Shown here: one piece after another, positions 28,804-63,338 of the stretch
Position numbering within the stretch: position 1 is the stretch's first letter
How the letters are laid out: each line of letters opens with the position of its first letter
NCBI RefSeq assembly: GCF_001434665.1
Contig: NZ_AZDG01000009.1
Span: 1 to 64,000 of the forward strand
Reading direction: 5' to 3'
DNA from: Companilactobacillus tucceti DSM 20183
GTDB lineage: Bacteria; Bacillota; Bacilli; Lactobacillales; Lactobacillaceae
DNA length: 64,000 nucleotides
Program-made: the position numbers and the translations under genes
Notes under the pieces: model-generated
Database searches by the model: none
The model's input: the letters and a program-made list of their open reading frames with translations, nothing else
Told to the model about the DNA's origin: nothing

Positions 28804-31275
28804 TTAATTATTTCCAATTACATCTGACGTTGTCCAAGTTAATGTACCAGTATAATGACCAGCTGGACTTAATCCTAATTGCTTTAAAAGCAATCCAGTA
28901 TCATTGGTCCAATCTCCTGAAATATTATTAGTAGTACTTGTAGTGTATGATTGGTCATTTGTTGCAACTATTACTGGTGTGTCGCCAATATTAACGTAAT
29001 CAGAATTATTATCTTTTCTATAAACTAGGTTCATATTTTTATTAAGACTATTATCGGTGTTATATAACCCATTTGATGTAACGGATAATTGCCATGGTTC
29101 ACGTAGACTAGTTACGCTTAAATTAAAATCTGAAGCACGTTTTAGATAGGTTGACTTATTACCAAAGTGAATATTTTGAAAGGCCAAACTATCTGAAACA
29201 TTTAGAGCAAGTGATTTATCCGGCATAACGTTAACGTTGTATGTAACTTCATTAGATATTAAGCCATTAGTTCTGTCGATAGCTTTAACTTTAATTTGTT
29301 GGGTTGAATTTACTGGGAACACATCCCCAAAATTATCTCCAGCACCTTCAATTAATTTCTTGAAGTCTACAGTTGCAGAAGATGTCTGGCCACTTTGAAG
29401 GCTTAAGTCTTGAGCAGCAGTGTAATTGTGATCTCCAATTGTTACGTTGAAGACGATATCTGAACCCTTGAGATCACTAGGCGCATTACTACTATATCCT
29501 AGATTAAGGTTTGAACTTAAACTTGCATCTTCATTTTTGTATAACAATTTGTAGTCAGTATTATCTGTACTTAGGTTTAGACTGTAATCTTTTTTAGCCA
29601 AAATAGTGAAGGCAGGAGAACTTGTCATCGCAATGCTATTCGTACCTGTAAATGAAGCAGGCGCTTGTTTTACGTTGATGTCACTTGATGTATCGTTCGT
29701 GGCAGTACCTGAAATAGAAATGTTAGCAACGTTATTATCATTGGATAGGACTCTTAATAACTGATGTTGAAGAGTTCCGGTGTCGTGTTGCCATTCGTCA
29801 TTTGTAATCACTTCAGGTTCCTTACCATCAGAATATGTGATAGTGGCGACGTTTAATTGAGCATCAGGTTTAATTTCAAAGTTATCAGGAATCTTTATCT
29901 TAGAAACAATTGATTTCCAGTCGTCGTCACCACGAATGTATTCAAGATTGTAATCAAGTGAAAGGTCATCACCATTAGCCACTGTCTTGTCAGTTGATTC
30001 GTCGGTGATTTTTTTGTGTAATGTTTTATCTGTGATTGATGCACTTACATCAGTAGTAGGTGATTCAGGGATTGAATCAAATGCTATTAATTTTGTAGCA
30101 GCATAATCAGATGGGGTGGTAGCACCAGTAAATCCCCAAAGGACCTTGTTTGAAGCTGGTGCTTTCAAATTATCGATATTTATTGGGTTACTTACTGTTT
30201 TAGAATTAGTATTTTCTATTCCACCTTTACTAATATCATTATATGTATATGTTAAAGTGGCAATACCTTTATTAGAACCAGTAGTAGGAGCTGGTGTCCA
30301 ATTAATAGTCATGTGGTGCCAATAAACAGGATTACCATTGGCATCTTTATCATTAGTTAGATCTACGTCGGTGGAGTTTGATTTAACCATCATAGTGAGT
30401 TTATTAAAATGATCATAATTACTATAATCACTGAACTCATCAGTTTGGGAATAGGTGTCTGTTAGCGCTGGGTAAGTTACGGAAATGTTACCATATTGAC
30501 CACCGTTGGTACCATAAGAAAGTGTCCCAAGAATTTTTGAGGAGGTCGGTATCCCACCTGGATGAGTATCAAAACTATTTTGTGAATACAATGAACTATC
30601 TGAGGCTAGTCCTTCTTTTTTTAACTGAATGGGTGACTCTTTATGGAAATTATTATTTTTGGCATCAATTTCTAATGCCATACTATTTTGAACCGCTGTT
30701 GTGGCCATATAACTTGGTGTCTTAGAAGTATAAGACTCAGGTGTAAGTAGAAAACCAGGGCTATAAGTAGCAGTATCAGCACCATAAACACCTAAGCCTT
30801 CAAGACCGGCTCCTAAAGCGGCAGTACCTCTACTATCATTTTGAAGGACGAAAGAGATACCTTCGCCATTTATATCGTCTGATGCAGCTCCCGTTCCGAA
30901 ATAAACCCAAAAAGAAATGGTTTGAGGTTTAGTAATATCAAATGTTCGACCATTTGACCAAAGGGCACCATAGGAAGATCTACCATTAGCTAGAGAAATA
31001 ATATTACCCGTAGATGGTGCTGAGGCTCCGCTTCGATCTAATATTTGTGCGGAGTTAGTTTTATACGGAAACTTATCATCCCCTGGTGGGTTTGTAACAG
31101 TTGATTTAGTCAAGTAATTACCAATTGCAACACCATCAGGAGCGTCTTGCAAGACATCTTTATCGTCTCTGGTGATTAAGTCAGCTGAAACGTTGTTTGT
31201 ATTTGTTATTAAGATAGCAAAAATGCTCATGAGGAATATAAGTCCCCACAAGTTTAATTTGTATTTATTTTTCAT
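28804..31275 (-). CDS. Secreted L-type lectin-like protein with C-terminal WxL domain, copy 1
   Basis: An 823-residue exported protein. The start is the ATG at 31275, preceded by AGGGGGG; the signal peptide MKNKYKLNLWGLIFLMSIFA ends near VSA (about residue 33). Residues ~60-400 form a bacterial L-type lectin-like domain (KPQTISFWVYFGTG, ISFVLQNDSRGTAALGAGLE, YWHHMTINWTPAP). Middle beta-sandwich-like segments follow. The C-terminal ~180 residues are a WxL domain: EPWQLSVTSNGLY and a final TGTLTWTTSDVIG. WxL domains bind peptidoglycan non-covalently. Such proteins often bind glycans on hosts, plants or neighbouring cells. No DUF916-type WxL partner is nearby. A close paralogue lies directly upstream. 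Confidence 0.82.
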   Translation of the reverse strand: MKNKYKLNLWGLIFLMSIFAILITNTNNVSADLITRDDKDVLQDAPDGVAIGNYLTKSTVTNPPGDDKFPYKTNSAQILDRSGASAPSTGNIISLANGRSSYGALWSNGRTFDITKPQTISFWVYFGTGAASDDINGEGISFVLQNDSRGTAALGAGLEGLGVYGADTATYSPGFLLTPESYTSKTPSYMATTAVQNSMALEIDAKNNNFHKESPIQLKKEGLASDSSLYSQNSFDTHPGGIPTSSKILGTLSYGTNGGQYGNISVTYPALTDTYSQTDEFSDYSNYDHFNKLTMMVKSNSTDVDLTNDKDANGNPVYWHHMTINWTPAPTTGSNKGIATLTYTYNDISKGGIENTNSKTVSNPINIDNLKAPASNKVLWGFTGATTPSDYAATKLIAFDSIPESPTTDVSASITDKTLHKKITDESTDKTVANGDDLSLDYNLEYIRGDDDWKSIVSKIKIPDNFEIKPDAQLNVATITYSDGKEPEVITNDEWQHDTGTLQHQLLRVLSNDNNVANISISGTATNDTSSDINVKQAPASFTGTNSIAMTSSPAFTILAKKDYSLNLSTDNTDYKLLYKNEDASLSSNLNLGYSSNAPSDLKGSDIVFNVTIGDHNYTAAQDLSLQSGQTSSATVDFKKLIEGAGDNFGDVFPVNSTQQIKVKAIDRTNGLISNEVTYNVNVMPDKSLALNVSDSLAFQNIHFGNKSTYLKRASDFNLSVTSLREPWQLSVTSNGLYNTDNSLNKNMNLVYRKDNNSDYVNIGDTPVIVATNDQSYTTSTTNNISGDWTNDTGLLLKQLGLSPAGHYTGTLTWTTSDVIGNN

Positions 31276-31442
31276 CTGTATTGCCCCCCTGTTAGAACAA
31301 TAAATGTAAATCATTTTATAACTGTCTGATATAAGTAATTATATCATTATGAGAAAAAAGTAACCAAATTTATGTAATAAATATAAATTAAAAAATGATT
31401 TTGGGAGAAAAATATTATTGTCTTTAAACAGGTGGCATAAAT

Positions 31443-31560
31443 GTGCAATGATACACAGCTTTTTCCGCTTAAAGCAAAAGATCCTATCAATCTAAAATCG
31501 GATTGATAGGATCTTTTACCTTAATGCTCGAAAGCTGAACGTGTATCATTGCACTCTTTT
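31443..31560 (-). repeat. Structured 3'-region repeat, family 1 copy R1
   Basis: Outer arms GTGCAATGATACAC (31443-31456) and GTGTATCATTGCAC (31541-31554) pair perfectly over 14 bp. An inner AGCTTT/AAAGCT helix and a perfect 17-bp central hairpin (31476-31517) follow. On the minus strand the element starts 2 bases after the stop codon of lectin gene 2. The conserved loops read GCATTAAGG and TTAAGCGGAAAA. Confidence 0.8.
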
Positions 31561-31561
31561 T

Positions 31562-33991
31562 TTAATTATTTCCAATTACGTCTGATGTTGTCCAAGTGAG
31601 TGTACCAGTATAATGACCGACTGGACTTAATCCTAATTGTTTTAAAAGTAATCCAGTATCACTGGTCCAGTTTCCTGAAATATTATCAGTAGTACTTGTA
31701 GTATATGATTGATTGTTTGTTGCGACGATTACTGGTGTTTCGCTGACATTCATGTAATCAGAATCGTTATCTTTTTTATAAACTAGGTTCATATTTTTAT
31801 TAAGACTATTATCGGAATTATATAATCCTTTTGATGTAACTGATAATTGCCATGGCTCGCGTAAGCTAGTTACACTTAAATTGAAATCGGAAGTACGTTT
31901 TAGATAGGTTGACTGATTACCGTAATGAATATTTTGAAAAGCTAAGCTATCTGAAACGTTCAACGTAAGTGACTTATCCGGTAGAACATTAACGTTGTAA
32001 GTAACTGCATTAGATACTAATCCGTTAGTTCTATCGATTGCCGTAACTTTAACTTGTTGAGTAGAGTTAACTGGGAATACGTCCCAGAAATTATCTCCAG
32101 CACCTTCAATTAATTGTTTTATATCCATAGTTGAAGAAGTTGTTTGACCAGTTTGAAGACTTAAATCTTGAGCGGCAGTGTAATTATGATCTCCAATAGA
32201 TAAGTTGAAAACAATATCTGATCCTTTAAGATCACTTGGTGCGTTACTACTATATCCTAGATTAAGATTTGAACTTAAACCAGCATTTTCATTCTTATAT
32301 AACAAGTCGTATTCAGTTTTATCTGTGCCAAGAACTAAACTGTAATCTTTTTTGGCCAAAATGGTGAAAGCAGGAGAACTCGTCATTGCAATACTATTTG
32401 TACCTGTAAATGAAGCGGGTGCTTGTTTTACGTTGATATCACTTGATATCTCGTTCACGGCAGTTACTGAAATAGAAATTTTAGCGGAACTATTATTTGT
32501 ATCGAGTTCTTTTGCCAAAGTATATTGAAGATTTCCTCCAACGATATCATCTTTAGATATCTTAGTTGGACTTTGACCATCACCATAATCTATAGTAGCA
32601 ATGTTCTCATTAGCATCAGGCTTTAAAGTGACGTTATCAGGAATTTTTATTTTAGAAGCAATTGATTTCCAGGATTCCTTACCACGTATATAGTTAAGAT
32701 TATAATTTAATGATAAATCGTCACCATTAGAAACGGTTTTATCTGTGGAGCTGTCTATGATAGTTTTGTTTAAAGTTTTATCAGTGATCGATGCACTTAC
32801 ATCAGAAGTAGGTGATTCAGGGATTGAATCAAAAGCCACTAGTTTAGTAGCAACTAAATTAGATGTACCATTTGCTCCTGTAAAGCCCCAGCGAACTAAA
32901 TTATCTGTTGCGTTTAACTTGGTGGTATCAATATCTATAGTTTTTGTAGTAGGGGTTTTCTCTAGTCCTTCCTTAGTTATGTCATTAAAAGCGTAAGAAA
33001 GTTTTGCAATATTAGATCCAGATGGTGCTGGTGTCCAATCGATGGTTACGTGATGCCAGTAGACTGGATTATTTGATGAGTCAGTATAATCGGTTAAATC
33101 AGCTAATTGTGAGTCTACATGAACCATGACTGTTGCTTTATCAAATCCGGGATAGTTACTATTGATGTTTGAATCGATACTTGTTTGATAATAGGTTCCA
33201 GCAAAAGCGGGATAGATTACTGCTATATTTCCGTACCGGCTAGCACTTCCATATGTTAGGGTGCCCGGTATTCCAAGCGAAGAAGGTGGCGTTGTCCCTA
33301 ATTGAGTATCATAAGCATTTTGAGAAAAAGTAGTTCCGACAAGGGGAATCCCACTTGAGCTCATATTTATGGGAGCATTTTTGGAGTTATACATGTTGTT
33401 TTTTGCCGTATCAAATTCTAGTGCAACGCTGTTTTGGATGGCTGAATTTTGCATGAAAGATACTTTTTCTGAATAAGTATTAAAGACACTAGATGTAGAT
33501 TTGTCGAAACCATATGCGCCTATACCGTCTAATCCAGCACCTAATGCACCATTACCACGGGCATCATTTTGAAGAACGAAAGTGATACCCTCACTGTTTA
33601 TATCGTCCTCACCGTTACCAGATCCAAAATACATCCATGCTGAAATAGTTTGAGGTTTAGTAATATCAAAAGTTTTTTTTGTTGACCAAAGTGATCCGTA
33701 GGTATTCTTACCATTTGCTAGAGAAATTATATTTCCATCGGTAGAGTTATCACCAGAGTGATCAACTATTTGAGCTGAATTAGTTTTAAAAGGACTTCCC
33801 GATACGGGAGTTGGAGTGGAATTTGACATGTATTGGCTGAGTGGGAGCCCATTAGGGGCTTCTTTTAAAACAGCCAAATCAGTGCTACTGGTTAAAGTAG
33901 CGGAAACGTTAGTGGCATTAGCCGTTACTATAACAAAAATGCTCATGAGGATAATAGATCCCCATAAGCTCAGTAGATATTTTTTCCTCAT
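31562..33991 (-). CDS. Secreted L-type lectin-like protein with C-terminal WxL domain, copy 2
   Basis: An 809-residue paralogue of the downstream gene. The ATG at 33991 follows GGAGGG. The signal peptide MRKKYLLSLWGSIILMSIFV ends near VSA (about residue 33). The lectin part (about 60-390) again shows KPQTISAWMYFGSG, ITFVLQNDARGNGALGAGLD and YWHHVTIDWTPAP, but with many substitutions. The second half is almost identical to the paralogue, from DVSASITDKTLN to the WxL end TGTLTWTTSDVIG. This points to duplication with ongoing homogenisation of the C-terminal half and divergence of the glycan-binding half. Both copies face away from the giant adhesin gene across a 490-bp gap. Confidence 0.82.
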   Translation of the reverse strand: MRKKYLLSLWGSIILMSIFVIVTANATNVSATLTSSTDLAVLKEAPNGLPLSQYMSNSTPTPVSGSPFKTNSAQIVDHSGDNSTDGNIISLANGKNTYGSLWSTKKTFDITKPQTISAWMYFGSGNGEDDINSEGITFVLQNDARGNGALGAGLDGIGAYGFDKSTSSVFNTYSEKVSFMQNSAIQNSVALEFDTAKNNMYNSKNAPINMSSSGIPLVGTTFSQNAYDTQLGTTPPSSLGIPGTLTYGSASRYGNIAVIYPAFAGTYYQTSIDSNINSNYPGFDKATVMVHVDSQLADLTDYTDSSNNPVYWHHVTIDWTPAPSGSNIAKLSYAFNDITKEGLEKTPTTKTIDIDTTKLNATDNLVRWGFTGANGTSNLVATKLVAFDSIPESPTSDVSASITDKTLNKTIIDSSTDKTVSNGDDLSLNYNLNYIRGKESWKSIASKIKIPDNVTLKPDANENIATIDYGDGQSPTKISKDDIVGGNLQYTLAKELDTNNSSAKISISVTAVNEISSDINVKQAPASFTGTNSIAMTSSPAFTILAKKDYSLVLGTDKTEYDLLYKNENAGLSSNLNLGYSSNAPSDLKGSDIVFNLSIGDHNYTAAQDLSLQTGQTTSSTMDIKQLIEGAGDNFWDVFPVNSTQQVKVTAIDRTNGLVSNAVTYNVNVLPDKSLTLNVSDSLAFQNIHYGNQSTYLKRTSDFNLSVTSLREPWQLSVTSKGLYNSDNSLNKNMNLVYKKDNDSDYMNVSETPVIVATNNQSYTTSTTDNISGNWTSDTGLLLKQLGLSPVGHYTGTLTWTTSDVIGNN

Positions 33992-34481: not shown

Positions 34482-37400
34482 TTGAGACAAAAAGTGACCA
34501 ACGGTGATGTTAAGAAGAGATTCATATTATATAAGGGACACACCGGTTGGAAAATCAAGACGAGAATATTTGGTGGTTTACTAGTAAGCTTTTCAGTATT
34601 TGCGATTGCTGAAAGTATGGGAGTCGTTGATGCCCATGCATCAGCTGTAACAACACAAACTACTATGTCAAATAGTGCTGCGGAGTCACCGGTGCCAACA
34701 GGAGATAGCGCTGGTGATACGACCGAAAGTACATCTAATACAACAAGTAATACCTCAAAAAATCAACCGGTAGCACAAGCTACTGCGCAAACACAACAGG
34801 GCAGTACAACACAAGATAGTACGAATGCAACTAAGTACCCAGTTTTATCCCAGAATCAAAATGTTAGTGTCGGTGCTGACACATCGACTGTTAATCTAAC
34901 ATCTGATCAAATTGCAGGGCACTTTACCGCTAACGTTGAAAATAGAGATGGCGGGGATTCGGATTCTGATGCTGCTGATAACACACACAATATTCAAATT
35001 GGTTCTGATGGTTCTGTTGACCTTACAACACTTGGGGATCATCAGTATTATTCTTCACCTGGCAGATCAAGTTCTATATCAGGACACCAGTCTGCTCACG
35101 TTTCATTCGAACATGAAATCGATTTTGGACATAATTTTGATATGTCAGGAGCTTTAGGTATTGGTAGTAAAAGTTCCGGTGGTGCTGACAGTGTTGGCTT
35201 TATCTTTGCACCAGGAGATCCTGCTGAAGCTACTAAAGGTGGCTCTGGTGGACAATTAGGCCTTGGTGGTTTGAGTAATGCCTTTGGATTTGTTTTTGAT
35301 GAATATTATAATAGCAACTTTAATGATCCTAGTACATATAGTTATAACTATCCATATATAGGTTGGAGAACAACTGATTCATCTGGTAGTTTGCAAAGTA
35401 CCAATACTGGGGATGTTCAGTCATCTAGTAACTTGGGACTAACTCGTAGTTCACAACCAGTTAATGATTTTACAATGCACTACGATGCTTCCACACAAAT
35501 GTTAACTGTTACATTAAACGGAACATCTTTTAGTCGCCACATTGATGATATCAGTACTGGTTATTCACTTTCAGTTGCCGCTTCAACCGGTGGTAGCTTG
35601 AATGATTATTCTGCTAAAATAAGTAGCTTTAGTTATACACCTAAGACGATTCCATTAACAATTAATTTGGTTGATTCAGCGGATCAAGGAGCTTTATTAG
35701 ATAAAACAAACGTTAAAGCTGTCGCCAATATCGGTGATACTATTTCAATTTTCTCAACTCAAGCTGCTGCAGATCGTGCCGTTGCAGATGGTGAAGTTGA
35801 TCCTTCATTAGTAGCGGTTATACCAACAGATTCAGCTGGTAATGTTTATGTGATCGATAGTAGCAAAGTTGTTTCAAATAATAACGGAACGGTCCACGTT
35901 ATCAAGGACGAGGATGGTATTGCAGATAGTACTTACTATAGTTATACAGTTACGGATGCTGATAATCAGCAGATGACAGTTCCGGTGAGATTGGCTTTTA
36001 AAGCGAAGGTCACTCCCGTTGATTCCACAACTAAAAAGCCTATTAGTGGATTAGATCCAGTGACAGTAGTGGCAGTTGACGGTAAACCGATTCTGGTTCA
36101 AATTCCAGGATATACACCTACATCGGTTATTTTAAATAAACCCGCTGATGGTCAGGCAATAGCCGACGATGTTTTACCAATTGATCAAGGTACAACTAAT
36201 ACAGATACATCAACGACTACAGGTACGGCTAATCCAGTAGGACATTATTACACTGGAACAGGTAAAACAGTTGACGGTAAATCCGTTGTAGATAATGCTA
36301 CCGTCGGAACAGGTCAATCAATTTCTGATACTTTAGATAAACAAGCTTACCAGGATTCTAAGGGCAATGCTGTAGCTAGTGGTGGAAAAACTGCTATTAA
36401 TAGTGATGATTATTATTGGTCAGATGTTGGTAACGCTAATGCAACCGATTCTCTAGATAGTACAAAACCTCAAAGTGTCGATAGTATTCTTTTACCAACT
36501 ACTGCCACTTTAGATTATTGGGAACAACAAGCTACCGCTAATCAAACTAAAGCTGACGATTATAAACAACAAGCTCAAACCATGTATGATACTTTTGTTG
36601 GTTTGTCAGGCCTAACTACGGCTCAAAAAGCAGCCGCTGATAAATTATTACAATCAGTTGTTAATATTTATGAAGAAGTTTCTGATAAAAACGGGCAAGC
36701 TAAAGCCGCTTTTGAAAAAGGCAAGACAGATACCGCCGCTACAGATATTTATAACGATGGACAAACTGGCTATGAAAACCTGGAAGCCGTTAAAAACTTA
36801 TTGATCAGTTTTAATGATGATCTGACATCTTTGAAAACAACTAATAAGGATGCACAAAACAGTTTGGCAACATTTGACTCATGGAGTGTAACTTATGGTG
36901 ATGATAATGGATTCCCTAATGTCAGTTTTGGTCCGGATTTTGGAACCCCTACTACCGCTCAAATTCAAGGCTTAGATAATCCAAATTATTATCAGTTTTA
37001 TACTTGGGGTGCTTCAGGTAAAGGTGATACTCCCGTTACTCCAAAAGATGTCGGTCAATATGTTTTAATGCTGACTGATGCTGGACGTACTTACTTAAAG
37101 AGCTTGAGTACGAATGATAATGCCGGACTTTATGTTTCCGGCGTTTTAACGATCAATCCAAAGAGTGTTGAAGCGAATGTCAATAATTTAACAGTAGCAT
37201 ATGGAGATACTCCGGTTTTGAGTGGCAATGTAGATACGATTAAGACAGATGCAACTGATTTGGAAATATTTGATAATGCAGCAAACAAAGTAGTCACAGC
37301 TAACCAATTGCAAGCTGGCGGAGACTATTCAATTAGATATACAGACAAAGCTCAAACCGATTTAAGTAAAGGAAATTATACTATTACGACATTCAACACT

Positions 37401-40400
37401 GGGAAATTAACAGTTACTAAACGTCCATTGACTGTGACAGTTCCAAAGGGAATATATGGTAAAACGTACGGTGATAGTGATAATAGTGAACCTGAATTTG
37501 TTGGCACTACTGACGACTTAGTCAATGGTGATACTTTGGAAAGTATTGGCGTTAAGTTATCTAGGGATCATGGTGATGATGCTGGTGAATATCCAATTAA
37601 TATGGATCCTTCAATAAAACTTTCTGATATTAAAAATTATGATGTCACTGTAGTACCAGGTACTTTTATTATTGGTAAAAAGCCAGTTACCGTAACAGCT
37701 GATAATTTAGGTAAAGTTTATGGGGAAAAAGATCCAGAACTTACTTTTGACAGTATAAAAGACGGTTCTCTTGTTGGTGATGACACTAAGTCTGCTTTAG
37801 GTGTGACTTTGGAGCGTGTTAAAGGTGAAGATGTCGGAACATATGACATAACTGGTACTAGTGATAGCAAGAACTATAATGTGACGATAAATCCTGGTAC
37901 ATTCACGATTGCAAAAGCACCAGCTGATATCGATATAACTCCAAAAACAATAACTTATGGTGATGCACCAACATTTGCTTGGAGTGTGGATCATACTGAT
38001 GCAGTTGATAATTTAACAGCAGATGATTTTGAAGTTGTTGATTCCACAGGTAAAGCAGTGGATTCTAAATTCCAAGTTGGTGAAGATTATAATATCCAAC
38101 TAAAAGATGGTGTACTAAAGACTCTTAACGACGCTAATTCTAATTATGAATTTAGTGCTCCGAAAGTGGCAAAATTAACCGTAGATCCAAAGAATATTAC
38201 AGTTACAGCTTCGGATAGCCATAAAACTTATGGTGATGCTGATCCAAGTGAATTCACTTTAACTGATGATTCCGCAAAAGGTTTAGTAAATGGCGATACA
38301 CTTACAAGCTTGGGTGTTAAATTAAGCCGTGATAAGGGCGAAGATGTTGATACATACGGCATAAATAAAGATGTTTCTTCAACTCTAAATAAGAATTACA
38401 ACATTACAGTTACACCCGGCACATTTACTATCAATAAAAAGAACATTACAGTGACAGCGGCTGATAGTACTAAGGTTTACGGCAACGATGACCCTACATT
38501 TACATTGACTGTTGACTCTGCTAAACGACTTGTTAATAATGATAAATTAACTGATTTGACGGTTAATTTAACACGTGTAGCAGGGGATGATGTCGGAGAT
38601 TATGCAATAAGTGGAACGGCAACGAACCCTAATTACGAAATCACTGTAACTCCAGGTACATTTACTATTACAAAGGCAGATGCTAGTTTTGACATCGGTC
38701 ACACTGACGTGGTTTATGGTGATACTCCTATATTTACTGGAACATCTAAAGCTAATGATTTTACTAATAATTTAGATTCAACTGATTATGAGATTTTTGA
38801 CTCTGATAATAATAAAGTGGCAAATACTGACTTGAAGGTTGATGGTCAATATACTATTAAATTAGCAGATGGCGCTTTAAACAAATTAACTTCAGCAAAT
38901 AAGAATTATAGTTTCAATAACTTTAATGGAAATACATTAGCCGTTACACCAAAAGAAATTGTTGTTACAGCTGATAATAATAGTAAGACTTACGGAGCAG
39001 ATGAGCCTAAGCTCACTTTAACAAGTAATTCAGCTGATGAATTAGTGAACGGCGACACACTTGAAGACTTGGGAGTTAATTTAGTCCGTAATACTGGCGA
39101 AGATGTTGGATCCGATTATGCGATTAATCTCGATAAGTCGTCTAAATTGAATGACAATTACAAGATCACAGTCAATCCAGGAACGTTTACAATAAATCCA
39201 CTTGCAATTACAGTTACTGCAGCAGATAACAGTAAAGTTTATGGATCAACTGATCCAGAATTAACTTTGACTCCTGACTCAGCTAAGGTACTTGTAAATG
39301 GTGATGAACTTTCAGATTTAGGTGTTAAATTAGTACGTGCAGACGGTGAACATGCCGGAACTTATGCTATTAAATTAGACGATTCATCTAATTTGGATAA
39401 GAACTATGAAATCACAGTCAACTCAGGAACATTTACGATCAAGCCTGCTGCTGTTACAGCTGACAGTATCACAATTGAACCTACTAAAGTTGTTTATGGT
39501 GATACACCTAACTTTGTGAGTGATATAAATGTCGGTGGAGTTTCTAACACTCTTGAACAAAGCGACTATGAAATTGTGGATCCAAACGGAAACGCCGTAA
39601 CTACTAACTTACAAGTTGGTGGAACTTACTTTGTTAAATTAAAAGCTGAAGCATTAGACAAACTTCATGATGCAAATCCTGATTATACTTTCAATAACCC
39701 AGAACGAGCAGAACTCACTGTAACTCCAAGAGATATTACAATTACTGCTGACAATAGTAGTAAAGTTTATGGAAATACTGATCCAACTAAGTTCAATTTA
39801 ACAAAGGATTCAGCTGATGGATTAGTAAACGGTGATACTCTTGACAGTTTAGGAGTTAAATTAAGTCGAGTCGCTGGTGAAAATGTTAATGACTATGCAA
39901 TTAATCTCGATAATCCATCTGATTTGAATAATAACTACAATGTTACTTTCAAAGCAGGTAAGTTTAGTATTACAAAGAAACCAGTAACAGTAATTGCTGA
40001 AGATAGTAGTAAAAATTATGGTGATAAAGATCCAGAATTAAAATTAACTGACGAATCTAGCGATGTTCTCGTAAAGGGCGATAAACTTTCAGATTTAGGA
40101 GTTAAATTAAGTCGTGTTGATGGTTCTGATGTTGGAACATACGCCATAACTGGTACTGTTAATAGCGCTAACTACGATGTTACAGTTACACCTGGGACAT
40201 TTACGATCAAACCAGCATCAGCTAGTGTAAAAGTGAATGATTCAAAGATGACTTACGGAGATAAGCCTAGTTTTTTAGCCACACCTAGCGTTGGTAAAAC
40301 AACATTCAGCCAAGATGATTTTGAAATTCTAAAAGATGGGAATGTCGTTAATAAAGCTGACTTACAAGCTGGAAGTTACGATATTAAATTGACTGATGTA

Positions 40401-41747
40401 GCTATAAATAGATTGAAATCTGAAAATCCTAATTATAGTTTTGGCGATGACTCAATTAATACGGCTACATTGACTGTTGCAAAGCGTCCAATCGTTATTA
40501 CAGTTGATAATCAGACAGTATATGTTGGTCAAGACGATCCTGAAAATAAGGCTATATTAAGAAATCCTAGAATCGGCGATAATAATTTATTAAATAGTCT
40601 ACATTTAAGTTATCAAGAACCTGATGCTACAACAGTTGGTGCATATGATATTAAAGCATCAAGTGACAATCCTAATTACGATATCACTATTGTTCCCGGA
40701 CAATTAACTGTTTTGGGTAAAGATACTGACAAAGATGGAAATGTTACGATAACTCAAAAAGATAAAGATGGAAATGTTGTTAAAGTAACAAAGGAATGGA
40801 ACAATGATGGAAATAAACAGACTGTCTACAATTATGACCCTACAACAGGTACAAAGACTGTTAGTGAATCTGATGATGGCAAAGAAGTTGAGAACCAAAC
40901 TATCGATCCTACTAAAGGTAAGGCAATTCTTCCAGATGAAGATGGTGCTGCAACCGTTGTAACTACTGATGATTCTGGTGAACCAAAGATCATCCATTAT
41001 ACATCTGATCCTGATAAGGACGGATTAACTAGTGCAGATGAATTGATCAAGTATGGCACTGATCCTCTAAATCCCGATACAGATGGAGACGGAATTAGTG
41101 ATGGTGATGAAGTTAAAAATCATACAGATCCTTTGGTAGCTAATATCTCTAATGATGATTCAGCAAAAATAGTCAAGAAGAATCAAACAGTTGGTACTAC
41201 AACTAAGACGGTTAAGTTATATAACAGAGACGGCAAATTGATTTCTGATAGAATGCTTGGAATAAATACCGATTGGCTCAGTGATGAAGAATATACTTTA
41301 GATGACGTTCTTTATTACCGTGTATCGACAAATGAATTTGTTAAAGCAAGCAATGTTTATGTATATCTTTATCAAGGACCAACATTTATTAGAGTATATA
41401 ATAATGAAAAAGGTGATTTGATCAATTATACTGGAGCTCCTGTTAGTCGAAGTTTAAGACCAAGTACTGAATGGAGAACTGACAGAATTGCGGTTATAAA
41501 TGGTCGAAATTATTATCGTGTATCAACAAATGAATTTGTTCCAGTCGAAGAAGTTTATGAATACGAAAGTGTACATAATAATATAACTACTGACGAACCA
41601 ACTACCGTTTACGATGAACGTGGCAATCAAACTGGAGTTGTACTACCAGCTAATGCCGCTTATAAAGTAGATAAAGTTGTAGTTATCAATGGGGATGTTT
41701 ATTATCGAGTTGCAACGAATGAATTTATTAAAAATGATGTAAAGTAG
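34482..41747 (+). CDS. Giant modular adhesin: KxYKxGKxW-type signal, lectin, MBG-type repeats, calcium-type repeats, SLAP domains
   Basis: A 2421-residue secreted protein. The TTG at 34482 is used because AAGGGG lies 9 bases upstream. The N-terminus has a KxYKxGKxW-like signal (RFILYKGHTGWKIKTRIFGG), typical of proteins exported by the accessory or long-signal route. Then come a Ser/Thr-rich stretch (60-120), an L-type lectin-like domain (about 140-390), spacer domains, and a helical segment (about 675-790). Residues ~893-2077 are five A-type (~95 aa, 'YGDTP.f') and nine B-type (~80 aa, 'K.YG..DP.l...L.nGD.L..LGV') MBG-like beta modules in the order ABB four times, then AB. DPDKDGLTSADELIKYGTDP and DTDGDGISDGDE (about 2180-2215) are calcium-type repeats. 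Three SLAP modules end the chain, so it is wall-bound without LPxTG. Role in adhesion is inferred. Confidence 0.85.
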   Translation: MRQKVTNGDVKKRFILYKGHTGWKIKTRIFGGLLVSFSVFAIAESMGVVDAHASAVTTQTTMSNSAAESPVPTGDSAGDTTESTSNTTSNTSKNQPVAQATAQTQQGSTTQDSTNATKYPVLSQNQNVSVGADTSTVNLTSDQIAGHFTANVENRDGGDSDSDAADNTHNIQIGSDGSVDLTTLGDHQYYSSPGRSSSISGHQSAHVSFEHEIDFGHNFDMSGALGIGSKSSGGADSVGFIFAPGDPAEATKGGSGGQLGLGGLSNAFGFVFDEYYNSNFNDPSTYSYNYPYIGWRTTDSSGSLQSTNTGDVQSSSNLGLTRSSQPVNDFTMHYDASTQMLTVTLNGTSFSRHIDDISTGYSLSVAASTGGSLNDYSAKISSFSYTPKTIPLTINLVDSADQGALLDKTNVKAVANIGDTISIFSTQAAADRAVADGEVDPSLVAVIPTDSAGNVYVIDSSKVVSNNNGTVHVIKDEDGIADSTYYSYTVTDADNQQMTVPVRLAFKAKVTPVDSTTKKPISGLDPVTVVAVDGKPILVQIPGYTPTSVILNKPADGQAIADDVLPIDQGTTNTDTSTTTGTANPVGHYYTGTGKTVDGKSVVDNATVGTGQSISDTLDKQAYQDSKGNAVASGGKTAINSDDYYWSDVGNANATDSLDSTKPQSVDSILLPTTATLDYWEQQATANQTKADDYKQQAQTMYDTFVGLSGLTTAQKAAADKLLQSVVNIYEEVSDKNGQAKAAFEKGKTDTAATDIYNDGQTGYENLEAVKNLLISFNDDLTSLKTTNKDAQNSLATFDSWSVTYGDDNGFPNVSFGPDFGTPTTAQIQGLDNPNYYQFYTWGASGKGDTPVTPKDVGQYVLMLTDAGRTYLKSLSTNDNAGLYVSGVLTINPKSVEANVNNLTVAYGDTPVLSGNVDTIKTDATDLEIFDNAANKVVTANQLQAGGDYSIRYTDKAQTDLSKGNYTITTFNTGKLTVTKRPLTVTVPKGIYGKTYGDSDNSEPEFVGTTDDLVNGDTLESIGVKLSRDHGDDAGEYPINMDPSIKLSDIKNYDVTVVPGTFIIGKKPVTVTADNLGKVYGEKDPELTFDSIKDGSLVGDDTKSALGVTLERVKGEDVGTYDITGTSDSKNYNVTINPGTFTIAKAPADIDITPKTITYGDAPTFAWSVDHTDAVDNLTADDFEVVDSTGKAVDSKFQVGEDYNIQLKDGVLKTLNDANSNYEFSAPKVAKLTVDPKNITVTASDSHKTYGDADPSEFTLTDDSAKGLVNGDTLTSLGVKLSRDKGEDVDTYGINKDVSSTLNKNYNITVTPGTFTINKKNITVTAADSTKVYGNDDPTFTLTVDSAKRLVNNDKLTDLTVNLTRVAGDDVGDYAISGTATNPNYEITVTPGTFTITKADASFDIGHTDVVYGDTPIFTGTSKANDFTNNLDSTDYEIFDSDNNKVANTDLKVDGQYTIKLADGALNKLTSANKNYSFNNFNGNTLAVTPKEIVVTADNNSKTYGADEPKLTLTSNSADELVNGDTLEDLGVNLVRNTGEDVGSDYAINLDKSSKLNDNYKITVNPGTFTINPLAITVTAADNSKVYGSTDPELTLTPDSAKVLVNGDELSDLGVKLVRADGEHAGTYAIKLDDSSNLDKNYEITVNSGTFTIKPAAVTADSITIEPTKVVYGDTPNFVSDINVGGVSNTLEQSDYEIVDPNGNAVTTNLQVGGTYFVKLKAEALDKLHDANPDYTFNNPERAELTVTPRDITITADNSSKVYGNTDPTKFNLTKDSADGLVNGDTLDSLGVKLSRVAGENVNDYAINLDNPSDLNNNYNVTFKAGKFSITKKPVTVIAEDSSKNYGDKDPELKLTDESSDVLVKGDKLSDLGVKLSRVDGSDVGTYAITGTVNSANYDVTVTPGTFTIKPASASVKVNDSKMTYGDKPSFLATPSVGKTTFSQDDFEILKDGNVVNKADLQAGSYDIKLTDVAINRLKSENPNYSFGDDSINTATLTVAKRPIVITVDNQTVYVGQDDPENKAILRNPRIGDNNLLNSLHLSYQEPDATTVGAYDIKASSDNPNYDITIVPGQLTVLGKDTDKDGNVTITQKDKDGNVVKVTKEWNNDGNKQTVYNYDPTTGTKTVSESDDGKEVENQTIDPTKGKAILPDEDGAATVVTTDDSGEPKIIHYTSDPDKDGLTSADELIKYGTDPLNPDTDGDGISDGDEVKNHTDPLVANISNDDSAKIVKKNQTVGTTTKTVKLYNRDGKLISDRMLGINTDWLSDEEYTLDDVLYYRVSTNEFVKASNVYVYLYQGPTFIRVYNNEKGDLINYTGAPVSRSLRPSTEWRTDRIAVINGRNYYRVSTNEFVPVEEVYEYESVHNNITTDEPTTVYDERGNQTGVVLPANAAYKVDKVVVINGDVYYRVATNEFIKNDVK
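37163..40714 (+). repeat. Internal tandem ABB modules of the giant adhesin
   Basis: The A modules start near 37163, 37920, 38677, 39446 and 40216, a period of about 760 bp. Each of the first four is followed by two B modules, the fifth by one degenerate B module. DNA identity between modules is moderate, so the array is old rather than freshly amplified. Confidence 0.75.
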
Positions 41748-41753
41748 GAGAGA

Positions 41754-41882
41754 GTGGGACAAAACATGTTCAACTTTCGAGCATTAAGGCAAATGACTCC
41801 AGTAATCCGATTTTGGATTACTGGAGTCATTTGTATTAAGCGGAAAAAGTTATGTTTTGTTCCACGTTTATGCTGCATGTTT
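41754..41882 (+). repeat. Structured 3'-region repeat, family 1 copy R2
   Basis: Outer arms GTGGGACAAAACAT (41754-41767) and ATGTTTTGTTCCAC (41852-41865) pair with one G-T. The inner helix is AACTTT/AAAGTT, where copies R1 and R3 have AGCTTT/AAAGCT, a compensated change. The central stem is 18 bp (41791-41832). The tail GTTTATGCTGCATGTTTAAG matches the tail of copy R4. It starts 4 bases after the adhesin stop codon. Confidence 0.8.
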
Positions 41883-41928
41883 AAGGGAAAATGGTTTTAC
41901 CACAGCCCCTGTTTTTGATTTCTAACTT

Positions 41929-43692: not shown

Positions 43693-45279
43693 ATGACAAA
43701 GGAAAACGAAACTCCACGTAAGCATAAACTTATCCAATATGCTAACGGTCCTTCTCTAGAAGAGATTAACGGGACAGTTTCAGTACCAAAGGATAAAGGA
43801 TTTGTAAAAACATTATTGGCTTATTCAGGACCAGGTGCACTAGTCGCAGTTGGTTACATGGATCCAGGTAATTGGTCAACTTCAATTACTGGTGGTCAAA
43901 ATTTCCAGTACTTACTAATGTCAGTTATTCTAATTTCTAGTTTAATTGCCATGTTATTACAATATATGGCAGCTAAACTAGGGATTGTAAGCAGTATGGA
44001 TTTGGCGCAAGCCATTAGAGCCAGAACGAGTAAGGCATTAGGAATCGTTTTATGGATTTTAACAGAGTTTGCGATTATGGCGACAGATATTGCCGAAGTT
44101 ATTGGTGCCGCAATTGCTTTGTACTTGTTATTCCACATACCATTAGTTATCGCGGTATTCATTACCGTTTTAGATGTTTTAGTTTTGCTATTATTAACAA
44201 AAATTGGATTCAGAAAAATCGAAGCAATTGTTGTTTGCTTGATTTTAGTCATTTTATTCGTATTCGTATATCAAGTCGCTTTATCAAACCCTGATTGGAG
44301 TGGAGTATTCGGTGGATTGATTCCAACATCAAGAACCTTTTCAACTAGTGAAAAGATTGCTGGTATGACTCCATTAAGTGGTGCTTTAGGTATTATTGGT
44401 GCTACTGTTATGCCTCATAATTTATACTTGCATTCAGCTATTTCACAAACACGTAAAGTTGATCATAATGATGAAGAATCTGTTGCTAGAAACGTTAAGT
44501 TTTCAGCTTGGGATTCAAATATTCAATTAACGGCCGCATTTTTCGTTAATGCCTTGCTATTGATCATGGGTGTTGCCGTATTTAAGACAGGTGCTGTTAA
44601 AGACCCTTCATTCTTTGGATTATATGAAGCATTGTCAGATACTTCTACATTAAGTAATGGAATTTTAATTGGCGTTGCCAAATCAGGTATTTTATCAACA
44701 CTATTTGCCGTTGCCTTATTGGCATCTGGTCAAAATTCAACTATTACAGGTACACTTACAGGACAAGTTATCATGGAAGGTTTCGTCCACATGAAGATGC
44801 CTCTTTGGTTGAGAAGATTAGTTACACGTTTGATCTCAGTTATTCCAGTTTTGATCTGTGTTATGTTGACTAGTGGAAAGAGTGCAGTTGACGAACATAC
44901 AGCATTGAATAACTTAATGAATAATTCACAGGTATTCCTAGCTTTCGCTTTACCATTTTCAATGTTGCCATTATTGATGATGACAGATAGTGCTATGGAA
45001 ATGGGTAACAGATTCAAGAATAGCCTATGGGTCAAGGTTCTAGGTTGGTTATCAGTTATCGGATTAACAATATTGAACCTTATAAGTTTGCCTGATCAAA
45101 TTTTGGCATTCTTCGGTGATCACCCAACAGCAGGTGATGTAGATGCCTCAAAAATTATTGCTTACATTCTAATTATTGCCGTATTGGCATTGTTAGTTTG
45201 GACAGTTGTTGATTTGCATCATGGTAATAAGAGATTAGCAGCACAAGTAAAAAGTGAAAAACTTGCCGCTGAAGAATAA
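43693..45279 (+). CDS. mntH: Nramp-family manganese transporter
   Basis: A 528-residue proton-coupled divalent metal importer with 11-12 membrane helices. The hallmark helix-1 motif GYMDPGNWSTSITGG (about residues 54-68) and the helix-6 motif GATVMPHNLYLHSAI (about 235-249) carry the Asp-Asn and Met-His metal ligands. Lactobacilli rely on manganese in place of superoxide dismutase, and mntH copies are usual. It follows the usp gene and is divergent from the mntR-like gene, which probably represses it when Mn is plentiful. A family-1 structured repeat begins directly after its stop codon. Confidence 0.95.
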   Translation: MTKENETPRKHKLIQYANGPSLEEINGTVSVPKDKGFVKTLLAYSGPGALVAVGYMDPGNWSTSITGGQNFQYLLMSVILISSLIAMLLQYMAAKLGIVSSMDLAQAIRARTSKALGIVLWILTEFAIMATDIAEVIGAAIALYLLFHIPLVIAVFITVLDVLVLLLLTKIGFRKIEAIVVCLILVILFVFVYQVALSNPDWSGVFGGLIPTSRTFSTSEKIAGMTPLSGALGIIGATVMPHNLYLHSAISQTRKVDHNDEESVARNVKFSAWDSNIQLTAAFFVNALLLIMGVAVFKTGAVKDPSFFGLYEALSDTSTLSNGILIGVAKSGILSTLFAVALLASGQNSTITGTLTGQVIMEGFVHMKMPLWLRRLVTRLISVIPVLICVMLTSGKSAVDEHTALNNLMNNSQVFLAFALPFSMLPLLMMTDSAMEMGNRFKNSLWVKVLGWLSVIGLTILNLISLPDQILAFFGDHPTAGDVDASKIIAYILIIAVLALLVWTVVDLHHGNKRLAAQVKSEKLAAEE

Positions 45280-45281
45280 GA

Positions 45282-45411
45282 GTGCAACTCAGCATGCCCA
45301 GCTTTCGAGCATTAAGGCAAATAAGGACAGTAATCCAACGGATTACTGTCCATATTTGTATTAAGCGGAAAAAGCTATGCTGAGTTGCACGTTTAAGTAG
45401 CAAGTTTGAGG
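45282..45411 (+). repeat. Structured 3'-region repeat, family 1 copy R3
   Basis: GTGCAACTCAGCAT (45282-45295) pairs perfectly with ATGCTGAGTTGCAC (45377-45390). The inner helix is AGCTTT/AAAGCT and the central hairpin GGACAGTAATCC/GGATTACTGTCC has the loop AAC. It starts within 3 bases of the mntH stop codon. Confidence 0.8.
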
Positions 45412-45434
45412 ATAAAGATAAAAGGTGAATTCGT

Positions 45435-45480
45435 TCCTATTTGTATTAAGCATAAAAAGCTATGCTGAGTTGCACATTTA
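45435..45480 (+). repeat. Partial duplicate of the 3' half of copy R3
   Basis: The stretch TATTTGTATTAAGC...AAAAAGCTATGCTGAGTTGCAC repeats 45352-45390 nearly exactly, without the 5' half. It cannot form the outer stem alone but could compete with the R3 3' arm for the same 5' arm. Confidence 0.75.
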
Positions 45481-45533
45481 GGTAACGAATAAAAAATTAT
45501 GTCACAGTCGCCTTTTTCGTCTAAAATAAAATC

Positions 45534-50656: not shown

Positions 50657-50673
50657 TTAAGAGGTAATTGAAG

Positions 50674-50988
50674 ATGGAAGTAAGTGATGCGCTATTAAAC
50701 GAGGCGGCTAAAATATATAAAGTTTTAAGTAATAGTGGTCGTATTAAGATTTTGTATTTTTTAGAAAATAATGAGGCAGATGTAAGTAGTATCGTAGAAG
50801 AAGTAAATTTGCCACAGCCCTTGGTATCACGCCAACTTGCCATGCTCCATCAATACCAATTAGTATCTAGAATAAAAAAAGGTAAACACGTCTATTATAA
50901 ATTAGATGATCCCCATATTTTAGAAATGGTAAATGCTATGTTAGGACATGTTTCACATGAAATTAAGCATGAACCACATCATTATTAG
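50674..50988 (+). CDS. ArsR/SmtB metal-sensing repressor
   Basis: A 104-residue winged-helix repressor. The ATG at 50674 is preferred since AGAGG lies 9 bases upstream; an in-frame TTG at 50668 is too close. Helix-turn-helix residues are VSSIVEEVNLPQPLVSRQLAML (about 37-58), with the wing RIKKGKHVYYKLDD. The tail DPHILEMVNAMLGHVSH holds D-x-H-x10-H-x2-H, the alpha-5 site used by CzrA/SmtB sensors for Zn or Co. No Cys-based alpha-3 (cadmium/lead) site is seen. So the sensor probably responds to zinc-like ions even though its partner is CadD-like. It would bind the palindrome over the operon's promoter. Confidence 0.9.
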   Translation: MEVSDALLNEAAKIYKVLSNSGRIKILYFLENNEADVSSIVEEVNLPQPLVSRQLAMLHQYQLVSRIKKGKHVYYKLDDPHILEMVNAMLGHVSHEIKHEPHHY

Positions 50989-50991
50989 AGA

Positions 50992-51110
50992 GTGTAAAAA
51001 AAGGCGTTTTGCCACCGGAGCGTAGCCTAGAACCACGAATGATTGGCACTATCAATCGTTCGTGGTTTTAGACTATGTGGAGGTTGCAGCTTTTTTTTAC
51101 ACGTTTAGGC
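50992..51110 (+). repeat. Structured 3'-region repeat, divergent family 1 relative
   Basis: It begins with GAGAGTGTAAAAAAAGGC directly after the stop codon and ends GCAGCTTTTTTTTACACGTTTAGG, matching family-1 ends, but the core differs: AACCACGAATGATTG and its complement form the central hairpin. The short element at 58878-58920 shares these ends. Confidence 0.65.
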
Positions 51111-51244
51111 TATAAAAACTCAGAAACACACGATATATGTCATAACCGCCTTTATAAATATAATTATTTTAAAAACATGTAGTATACTTGTAATTGACTG
51201 CTCAGCAGTTAGTTTAATTTAAAAAATAAATTTAGAGGTACGGA

Positions 51245-54026: not shown

Positions 54027-54084
54027 TGATCTTCCTTAAACGCGACAAGAAACACAACTTTTACCTTAAACATGCAGCTTAAAC

Positions 54085-54199
54085 GCGTCAAAAAACACAG
54101 CCTTTTCCGCTTAAAACAAACACCCTCATCAATCCATTCGGATTGATGAGGGTGTTTGCCTTAATGCTCGAAGGCTGAGCGTGTTTTTTGACGCTCTCT
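54085..54199 (-). repeat. Structured 3'-region repeat, family 1 copy R4
   Basis: GCGTCAAAAAACAC (54085-54098) pairs perfectly with GTGTTTTTTGACGC (54181-54194). The inner helix AGCCTT/AAGGCT shows a compensated change from AGCTTT/AAAGCT. The central stem is a perfect 18 bp (54118-54157). On the minus strand it starts just after the stop codon of the glycosyltransferase gene. A truncated relative lies at about 54034-54080. Confidence 0.8.
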
Positions 54200-54205: not shown

Positions 54206-55507
54206 CTATTTCCTTTTCATATGACGTTCAGGGCTTTTCCAAGTACCTTGTCCATATCCCATAATGGTTTTTATTGCTGGTATAAAGGTTGTAACTACAG
54301 AAAGTGCATTTACTTGCCAATAGACTAATGAATAAAAAGGCATGAACATTAGATATTTAAACTTGGCTGCTTTACCATCAATTATTAAAGCTGCGGCTAA
54401 TTGCATAACTCCGGCTATCATTTCAAAGGTTAGAAATACAAATGACATTGCAAATAAGAAAATCACTTGTTCTAGATTTCCAGTAAAAATGAAGCCGACT
54501 AATGATCCTAGAAAAAGCATTAAACTTATGAAATAGAAAAATGACCAGACGGTACTAAAGGTTTGATCTACTAAAAATGCTATTTGGCGAATGTATTTTA
54601 GAGGATGGAGGAATATTTTCCAAAAATTTGCTAACCAAACTTCTGTCCCGCCTTTAGCCCAAAGTTTTCTTTGATGGTATAAGCTCTTTAAGTCGTCAGG
54701 AACATTCATATAAAATACAATATTTGGAGCAAAAACGGTTGACCAGCCACTGATTTGATGGTCCCAGGCAATACTAATATCTTCGGTTGCACGATCTTGT
54801 CTGAATAATCCAACATCGATCAAAGCGTCACGGCGATACATTGTATTGGCTCCGCTATAAGCGTACATATTTCCAAAAACACCAATTTGGCTTCGCTTGA
54901 TTATGCCAACGATACTAGAAAATTCAACGGTTTGAGATTTAGAAATAATCGTATCTCGATTTAAAACATCTGTGTTGGCCGTTACGGCGGCAATATTTTG
55001 TCCTTCAGAAGTATCAAAGTAATTCATATATTTCCAAATAGCGTCTGGTTCAGGTAGTGAGTCGGCGTCGTTACTTAGAATAAATTCCCCTTTAGTAAAA
55101 GCAATGCCAATATTAAAAGCATGAGCTTTACCTTGGTTCTTTTCGATACGGATAACTTTTAAATTTTGATATCTTAACATCAGATGTTTCAGTATTTCAG
55201 GGGTTTGGTCTGTTGATCCATCATCTATGACTAATACTTCATAGTTAGAATAATTCAAGTCATTCATTAAATAATTGATTGTATGTTCGATCATGATTTC
55301 TTCGTTATGAGCCGGGATCATGATCGTTACAAATGGTTGAATATTTTTATCTATATGTTTGTAATTTTTGATTTTGTGGGCATAGAGAAATTGATAGCAG
55401 ATAGTTCCGATCATCCAACAAAATGAACCTAATATTGGGTATGAAATCAAGATCAATAACAGAAAATTAGCCACAGAATCAAAAACTGAGATTCCTGTTT
55501 TGATCAT
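54206..55507 (-). CDS. Processive membrane glycosyltransferase family 2 (PgaC-like)
   Basis: A 433-residue polymerising transferase. There are two N-terminal helices (about 10-45), a GT-A domain (about 58-280) and three to four C-terminal helices. Catalytic motifs are VTIMIPAHNEE, VIDDGSTDQT, LSNDADSLPEP (DxD), ATEDISIAWD (TED base) and QRKLWAKGG (Q-x2-RW-like). This is the pattern of PgaC/IcaA poly-N-acetylglucosamine and related synthases. It overlaps the upstream gene by ATGA, so the two are translationally coupled. In PgaC/PgaD systems c-di-GMP binds at the interface; two diguanylate cyclases lie within 10 kb. The polymer made here is not known. Confidence 0.88.
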   Translation of the reverse strand: MIKTGISVFDSVANFLLLILISYPILGSFCWMIGTICYQFLYAHKIKNYKHIDKNIQPFVTIMIPAHNEEIMIEHTINYLMNDLNYSNYEVLVIDDGSTDQTPEILKHLMLRYQNLKVIRIEKNQGKAHAFNIGIAFTKGEFILSNDADSLPEPDAIWKYMNYFDTSEGQNIAAVTANTDVLNRDTIISKSQTVEFSSIVGIIKRSQIGVFGNMYAYSGANTMYRRDALIDVGLFRQDRATEDISIAWDHQISGWSTVFAPNIVFYMNVPDDLKSLYHQRKLWAKGGTEVWLANFWKIFLHPLKYIRQIAFLVDQTFSTVWSFFYFISLMLFLGSLVGFIFTGNLEQVIFLFAMSFVFLTFEMIAGVMQLAAALIIDGKAAKFKYLMFMPFYSLVYWQVNALSVVTTFIPAIKTIMGYGQGTWKSPERHMKRK

Positions 55508-58149: not shown

Positions 58150-58211
58150 AAATGGTTAAAATCTTTTATTGATTGAAAGAATAGTATATATTTTAAATAT
58201 GTAGCGTAGAC

Positions 58212-58326
58212 GTGTAATAAAGCACAGTTTTTTTCGTTTAAAAAAGGACCCAATTAATCCAAAATCGGATTGATTGGGTCCTTTACCTTAATGCGCAAAA
58301 GCTGACCATGCTTTGTCGCACTCTTA
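58212..58326 (-). repeat. Structured repeat, family 1 copy R5
   Basis: The outer arms (58212-58224 and 58309-58321) pair with three wobble pairs and one mismatch. The inner helix and the central stem AAAGGACCCAATTAATCC/GGATTGATTGGGTCCTTT follow the family layout with one wobble. Unlike the other copies it does not follow a stop codon in its own orientation; its start lies just upstream of the glutathione peroxidase gene. Confidence 0.7.
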
Positions 58327-58343
58327 CAGAAGGGAGTATCTCC

Positions 58344-58814
58344 ATGGCAACTATTTACGATTTTTCAGAAATAGAAATGAACGGTAACAAAATCAACTTT
58401 AATGAATATAAAGGTAAGGTAGTATTAATTGTTAATACTGCAAGTAAATGTGGGCTAGCTCCACAACTTGAAGCAATTGAGGGATTGTATAAGAAGCATC
58501 ACGATCAAGGCTTTGAGGTATTGGGGTTACCATCTAATCAATTTCATCAGGAATTAGGTTCAGATGAGGAAACAAGTGACTATTGTCAGATGCATTATGG
58601 AGTGACATTTCCAATGACAAAGCAAGTAAAAGTAAATGGTGAAGACGAGGATCCATTGTTTACTTATTTAAAGGAAACCGCAGGTAATGGTCGTATCAAA
58701 TGGAATTTCACCAAATTCTTGATTGGTCGTGATGGTCAAGTGATAAAACGTTATGCGCCAGTTACTAAACCTGAAAAAATTGAACCTGATATTATTGAAG
58801 CACTCAAAAACTAA
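58344..58814 (+). CDS. Glutathione peroxidase family thiol peroxidase
   Basis: A 156-residue thioredoxin-fold peroxidase. The ATG at 58344 follows AAGGGAG. The peroxidatic Cys is in NTASKCGLAPQ (about residue 35), the Gln in LPSNQFHQELGSDEE (about 70), and the Trp-Asn in IKWNFTKFLIGRDG (about 123), completing the catalytic tetrad. The usual 'GFPCNQF' has Ser for Cys, so a resolving Cys at that site is absent; the Cys in SDYCQMHYG (about residue 87) could serve. Lactobacilli without glutathione use thioredoxin as reductant for such enzymes. The gene is followed by a terminator. Confidence 0.92.
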   Translation: MATIYDFSEIEMNGNKINFNEYKGKVVLIVNTASKCGLAPQLEAIEGLYKKHHDQGFEVLGLPSNQFHQELGSDEETSDYCQMHYGVTFPMTKQVKVNGEDEDPLFTYLKETAGNGRIKWNFTKFLIGRDGQVIKRYAPVTKPEKIEPDIIEALKN

Positions 58815-58867: not shown

Positions 58868-58877
58868 ATATCCTAAA

Positions 58878-58920
58878 CGTGCAAAAAAAGCTGCAGACCG
58901 CCTGTTTTTGCACTCTCCTT
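58878..58920 (-). repeat. Short relative of the family 1 structured repeat
   Basis: On the minus strand GAGAGTGCAAAAACAGGCGG...GCAGCTTTTTTTGCACGTTTAGG begins a few bases after the acetolactate decarboxylase stop codon. GTGCAAAAA pairs with TTTTTGCAC. It has the ends of the longer elements but almost no core. Confidence 0.65.
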
Positions 58921-63283: not shown

Positions 63284-63284
63284 A

Positions 63285-63322
63285 GTGTGACAAAAAGCGT
63301 TTTGCTACATGTTTTTGATAAA
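63285..63322 (+). repeat. Fragment of a family 1 structured repeat
   Basis: GAGTGTGACAAAAAGCGTTTTGC starts right at the stop codon, and TACATGTTTTTGATA echoes the family tail (GCATGTTTAAG). The core is missing. Confidence 0.45.
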
Positions 63323-63338
63323 TAGTGTGTGTACAGAG

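Follow-up and report, generated by a model that had tools for sequence, protein, structure and literature searches.

The 64,000-nt stretch of a 2.17 Mb Companilactobacillus genome (G000) analyzed here, called the window below, carries several copies of a long imperfect hairpin of about 120–175 bp that, on balance, seems to be a dispersed, non-autonomous element which is recognized by its fold and lands at the 3′ ends of genes, with the apex of its dominant subfamily (subfamily 1) acting as a transcription terminator. A covariance model (R1) was built from 41 copies in G000, themselves found by a DNA search that gave dozens in the genome, and a search of G000 with R1 gives at least 77 sense copies at 84 bits or more, plus fragments (a hand count among the matches listed). 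The covariance search over the genome that the initial annotation had proposed thus shows a larger family than was first reported. Partial and tandem copies also exist, and congeners differ in abundance, with 1 to at least 80 copies per genome. All five full copies first listed in the window are recovered with R1, and the shorter relatives listed with them are also real, one of them (50989) being a full member of another subfamily. The window copies are as follows.

41751–41887, + strand: full copy of subfamily 1 (160.1 bits with R1), 3 nt past the stop of a surface-protein gene (34482–41747, + strand; a 2421-aa MBG/lectin/SlpA-type protein by Pfam)
45279–45412, + strand: full copy (R1) whose own first A completes the TAA stop of an Nramp transporter gene (43693–45279; Pfam)
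45435–45481, + strand: a further, incomplete 3′ half following the 45279 copy
31421–31557, − strand: full copy (R1), 4 nt past the stop of an 809-aa gene (31562–33991, − strand)
54063–54197, − strand: full copy (R1), 8 nt past the stop of a glycosyltransferase gene (54206–55507, − strand; Pfam)
58190–58324, − strand: full copy (R1), exceptional in having no same-strand stop ahead of it and in overlapping the start of a glutathione-peroxidase ORF (58308–58814, + strand; Pfam)
50989–51124, + strand: full element of another subfamily (CCTAG type; 69.1 bits with R1), immediately past the stop of an ArsR-type gene (50668–50988; Pfam)
58875–58916, − strand: solo outer stem, AGAG..CGTTT, with the inner part deleted, behind an acetolactate decarboxylase gene (58924–59637, − strand; Pfam) and followed by an ordinary terminator hairpin
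63282–63332, + strand: 5′ fragment, weak when taken alone (R1 E = 0.33), whose AG forms the TAG stop of a flavin-reductase gene (62693–63283; Pfam)

Two other features of the window deserve mention. The adjacent large genes at 28804–31314 and 31562–33991 (−), the second of which has no Pfam match, represent a tandem gene duplication and share long direct repeats (89% and 74% over 300 nt). An ORF at 19311–20036 is flanked by a pair of 39-nt inverted repeats (19144–19182 and 20079–20117; 92% complementary, each arm itself palindromic).

The 41751 copy folds at −62.1 kcal/mol, compared with −27.8 ± 3.7 kcal/mol for shuffled versions of it (z = −9.4). Its parts, which include the 14-bp outer stem and 6-bp inner helix just as they were first described, are these.

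41751–41753, + strand: unpaired 5′ AGA, constant across genera (alignments within the genome and across genera)
41754–41767, + strand: 5′ arm of the 14-bp outer stem, with both-sided change at 11 of 14 pairs in G000 and 12 of 14 across genera
41768–41771, + strand: one-sided bulge, GNNC here and GNTT/GGTT-like in other subfamilies (alignments)
41772–41777, + strand: 5′ strand of the inner helix, AACTTT here, with 6 of 6 pairs covarying across genera
41778–41787, + strand: near-invariant 5′ strand of the core, made up of a CGA loop, GC, a bulged A and TTAA (alignments)
41790–41833, + strand: apical hairpin, the most variable part and fully compensated (41-copy covariation)
41829–41839, + strand: U-rich tract behind the apical hairpin, ATTTGTATTAA here and typically TTTGTTTTAA, the candidate termination point
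41836–41845, + strand: 3′ strand of the core, TTAAGCGGAA (alignments, cross-genus covariation)
41846–41865, + strand: 3′ strand of the inner helix (41846–41851) and 3′ arm of the outer stem (41852–41865) (alignments)
41865–41885, + strand: 3′ end CGTTT and tail ATGCTGCATGTTTAAG (alignment)
41892–41915, + strand: degenerate distal 3′ arm with a T-run, GTTTTACCACAGCCCCTGTTTTT

The fold is directly supported by compensatory change. In the refined structure of the 41-copy G000 alignment, which has 45 pairs, 97.8% of the cells are paired and 27 of the 45 pairs have changed on both sides, so the earlier statement that the stems change together holds in a larger alignment. The covariation score of these copies is 0.417 versus 0.152 when shuffled, and it falls to 0.05–0.07 when the register is slid. 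Among 24 elements from several genera, 22 of 26 body pairs covary and 95.4% of the cells are paired. GAGS pairs with AASCG in 119 of 121 distinct elements, the C/G alternative on one side being matched by its partner on the other, and CGTTT is kept in nearly all family members seen. The “loop words” of the initial annotation are indeed conserved internal loops but are not wholly loop, since they contain a short helix of GC(A)TTAA with TTAAGC, next to which lies an internal loop rich in G and A. In long inverted repeats, templated repair can leave changes that look compensatory, and correction of imperfect palindromes in a DNA repeat might in this way yield covariation with no selection on the fold. 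Such repair would, however, also be expected to remove the bulged A, the GA-rich loop and the one-sided bulge, all of which persist across genera, and it leaves the constant AGA and CGTTT and the placement of the element unexplained; it is a very improbable source of the pattern.

What varies in the element is the sequence of the outer stem, and what stays constant is the fold together with the unpaired and loop bases. A constant end sequence is required by enzymes that recognize double-stranded ends, but not by enzymes and other proteins that read folded strands. Because the end-stem sequence varies while the loops and fold are constant, we infer that a folded strand is recognized, probably through the unpaired AGA, an outer stem of free sequence, the one-sided bulge, the inner helix, the purine-rich core GAGCA/AAGCGGA and the 3′ CGTTT. 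The suggestion of a protein-binding element made at the outset is borne out to the extent that the conserved internal loops are of a sort that a protein or enzyme could bind.

Placement and orientation are also direct observations. The initial annotation had all but one copy beginning just past a stop codon, and this is so for four of the five full copies (−1 to +8 nt, same strand), with 58190–58324 the exception. A simple ORF caller puts a same-strand gene upstream of 40 of the 44 full copies in G000, mostly with −9 to +17 nt between its stop and the copy, and for 35 of the 44 the distance to a same-strand stop is no more than 20 nt; when position and orientation were drawn at random inside the same gaps, the mean was 15.0 and the maximum 24 in 5000 runs, and placement relative to stops is therefore not random. 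Copies in C. baiquanensis (G018) and in G002 have the same placement, and the first base or bases of some copies complete the stop codon itself, for example at 45279 and 63282. The genes that host copies have nothing obvious in common by Pfam, and 28 of 51 copies and fragments lie between convergent genes. The many copies in such convergent gaps, the patchy copy number, and the occurrence of fragments and tandem copies would all suit a purely selfish hairpin repeat that has no role in termination and prefers gene ends through selection against insertion elsewhere. This explanation is nevertheless unlikely, given that random placement in the same gaps produces neither the stop adjacency nor the orientation, and that ordinary terminators are missing behind subfamily-1 copies.

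That absence was measured with a detector that accepts a hairpin of up to 36 nt with an energy of −4 kcal/mol or lower, provided that 6 or more of the 8 nt after it are T. Element-free gene ends at the G000 loci have such a terminator in 32 of 56 cases (5 of 56 when shuffled). Downstream of the element one is found at only 4 of 35 ends in G000 (Fisher p = 1e-5 against the 32 of 56 control ends), and 28 of these 35 element-bearing ends have a sense-strand site at the apex, no more than 140 nt past the stop. A stable hairpin followed by a sense-strand U-rich tract, the usual mark of an intrinsic terminator, is thus present in subfamily 1 in three species: besides G000, a site lies inside the element in 5 of 6 copies in C. 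baiquanensis (antisense 1 of 6, downstream 0 of 6; controls 168 of 363, shuffled 18 of 363) and in 19 of 20 in G002 (antisense 7 of 20, downstream 1 of 20). In subfamily 1 the U-rich stretch that follows the apical hairpin is UUUGUUUU; the sense tract is only moderately T-rich, passing a strict threshold in 19 of 41 copies versus 4 of 41 on the antisense strand. Other subfamilies in C. baiquanensis are without an inner terminator site, some of them being followed at a greater distance by an ordinary terminator; since they lack the inner site, the conserved body is not itself a terminator and it is the subfamily-1 apex that is the candidate. The initial annotation held that few copies have a T tract and that they are not plain terminators, which is half right. 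The copies do have a conserved second hairpin body that plain terminators lack, but the U-rich tract behind the apical hairpin and the T-run behind a distal 3′ arm in many copies were missed, and the contrast with terminators is not supported, as the subfamily-1 apex resembles an intrinsic terminator, occupies the terminator sites of congeners and rarely has another short-hairpin terminator behind it.

The distal copy of the 3′ arm, which with its T-run lies behind many copies, is a possible second terminator; the detector ignores long-loop hairpins such as one formed by the 5′ arm and this distal arm. In G000 it is not significant as a general alternative to the near 3′ arm in pairing with the 5′ arm (p = 0.16). 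In 38 copies with a recognizable distal arm, pooled over species without control for relatedness, own pairing slightly exceeds that of permuted sets (9.45 versus 9.11 of 11), with 0 of 5000 permutations reaching the observed value. In some shorter forms (L014, 2002–2124; L017, 2001–2116; L024, 1991–2113) a CTC(T)-like end follows the near 3′ arm without a break, as if the near and distal arms had recombined.

The same gene ends were compared in congeners. It is observed directly that a position filled by an element in G000 can hold a simple terminator, or a member of another subfamily, in a congener. At the best aligned site (L010) both flanks align with C. baiquanensis, which has a plain terminator, GTGTATCAGAT..ATCTGATACAC plus a T-run, exactly where G000 has the element; no target-site duplication was seen at L010, and the congener site is a terminator and not a clean empty site. 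At the end of the Nramp gene (45279), close congeners have plain terminators, and four others have an element of another subfamily at the stop. C. baiquanensis has another subfamily in the same orientation at three sites (L021, L039 and 54077), and at L024 both species have subfamily 1 with different apical stems. These comparisons at orthologous sites indicate that gene ends have been occupied repeatedly by different family members; no recent insertion was observed inside a single species. In G043 (L184) the position of the G000 element directly after the Nramp gene is taken by a small palindrome, GAGTCTGGGACAAAACTCTAGACTC, which looks like the distal arm in reverse complement.

The favored reading, a mobile hairpin with a terminator at its apex, would work as follows. 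The element would spread within genomes, presumably by a transposition that makes new copies and that would be carried out by a hairpin-specific enzyme, and would land at or a few bases past a stop codon in the orientation of the gene. If the subfamily-1 apex is an intrinsic terminator, and transcription really ends there, a landed copy should take over termination for the upstream gene. A weak point is that the 3′ half would not be transcribed if most transcripts stopped at the apex. Conservation of the covarying outer stem would then need a separate cause, which may be movement as DNA or a function in read-through RNA.

Another reading is a 3′-UTR element acting after transcription, with the folded RNA binding a protein or blocking 3′-to-5′ exonucleases and so setting half-life or 3′ processing. 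The sense orientation and stop adjacency agree with this, as do the conservation of the purine-rich internal loops and the fact that other-subfamily elements without a U-tract still sit at stop codons. Moreover, G·U exceeds A·C on the sense strand by 63 to 22 cells, which favors the sense strand as the folded one, but the excess is weaker by pair types (26 to 16) and strand-biased mutation could contribute to it. The host genes, on the other hand, have no obvious common theme and copy number varies widely between close species, and we consider such an RNA element a somewhat doubtful alternative.

The family extends beyond the genus. A motif pattern scanned over 295 genomes of the order Lactobacillales finds tens of copies in several further genera of the Lactobacillaceae, compared with a background of about 0–3 elsewhere; eight near-identical hits in one genome (G160) are unlike the element in appearance. 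Fetched examples share an architecture of AGAG, a free outer stem, a CG(G)(G)TTAG-like bulge, a free inner helix and GAG[C/G]AT in the first half, and a variable hairpin, AA[G/C]CGGA, the helix partners and CGTTT in the second. A scan for AGA, a stem and CGTTT alone, over 800 kb of C. baiquanensis plus the window, gave 18 hits, all 18 of which have the core, and this is an independent check of the element's definition. In G034, which belongs to another family of the order (probably Enterococcaceae), a distant relative of the element gives about 55 matches. Many of these form head-to-tail arrays, and several arrays begin precisely at a stop codon. At four of its loci (L345, L347, L348 and L351) the head-to-tail unit is AGAAAAGC..CTCGGTCAGC..GAGCATTA..GCTAGACA, in some cases interleaved with a second hairpin type.

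Several known systems resemble the element in part. The attC sites of integrons are imperfect hairpins with one-sided bulges and a variable apex that lie just behind a gene's stop and are recognized by their fold. The element shares this shape and position, but its copies in G000 are dispersed single sites and not cassette arrays, and attC identity is rejected because RYYYAAC/GTTRRRY end boxes are absent, the 3′ CGTTT having T where a purine is required and the 5′ end being AGAG. REPs and BIMEs with their RAYT (TnpA-REP) proteins are likewise high-copy imperfect hairpins at gene ends; REPs, however, are 20–40 bp long with a GTAG or CGTC tag and an associated Y1 transposase, whereas the element is about 120 bp or more and has no such tag at its foot, its ends being AGAG and CGTTT. 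GTAG REPs often supply the TAG stop codon of the neighboring ORF (PMC3733652), as some copies here also supply a stop. The element may work in a mode like that of REPs or attC sites, by analogy and with no claim of membership in either. It does not have the constant terminal inverted repeats of a MITE, the outer stem varying freely in sequence with only pairing kept. Plain intrinsic terminators share with the subfamily-1 apex, which replaces them, a stable hairpin and a sense-strand U-rich tract, but they have no second conserved, covarying hairpin body such as the one in which that apex is nested. MRSC-65-2 and other mobile or repeat sequence candidates have a long covarying stem and dozens of copies per genome, and are thought to be selfish, with their DNA or RNA form unclear (PMC11109978). 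The element has the same kind of stem and copy number, but MRSC-65-2 has a repeated UYCCGG, which is not the element core, and the element's orientation agrees with that of the upstream gene. Among named families the closest in kind, judged by description, is EFAR (Efa) of Enterococcus faecalis, a family of long intergenic hairpin repeats, larger than REPs and preferentially near gene 3′ ends (PMC1590033), that is listed among bacterial MITEs (PMC3733652). The element is also a long hairpin repeat near gene 3′ ends, and a link of EFAR to the G034 tandem arrays is possible, as that relative may or may not be EFAR.

Searches of reference collections gave no name for the element. No window match in Rfam 15 lies above a curated threshold, and this and the other subfamilies have only chance-level hits below it. 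The window copy has no match in the plasmid and phage collections searched, and carriage by either is rejected on that ground. The Y1 transposase domain (PF01797, Y1_Tnp) is absent from three genomes with at least 75 copies each (G000, G002 and G006), which rejects Y1/RAYT mobilization, and mobilization by a resident reverse transcriptase is rejected because G000 and G002 have no PF00078 domain. Only general surveys of Lactobacillus repeats were found in the literature, and no paper with the five core words, in a search that misses most subscription journals, so that an earlier description is possible. We suggest only tentatively that these hairpins constitute a so far undescribed, structure-recognized class of mobile elements of the Lactobacillales, in which a folded single strand would be moved by a putative enzyme, would target stop codons or terminators, and would distribute portable terminators through the genome.

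If the favored reading is correct, a mobile hairpin family would define an appreciable fraction of the gene 3′ ends of these food and gut bacteria, and insertion could rewire transcript ends. A conserved fold with freely changing arms points to a structure-specific enzyme or an RNA-binding protein, and looking for such a protein is practical because close species range from few copies to many. The model R1 would also let annotators label many nameless intergenic regions.
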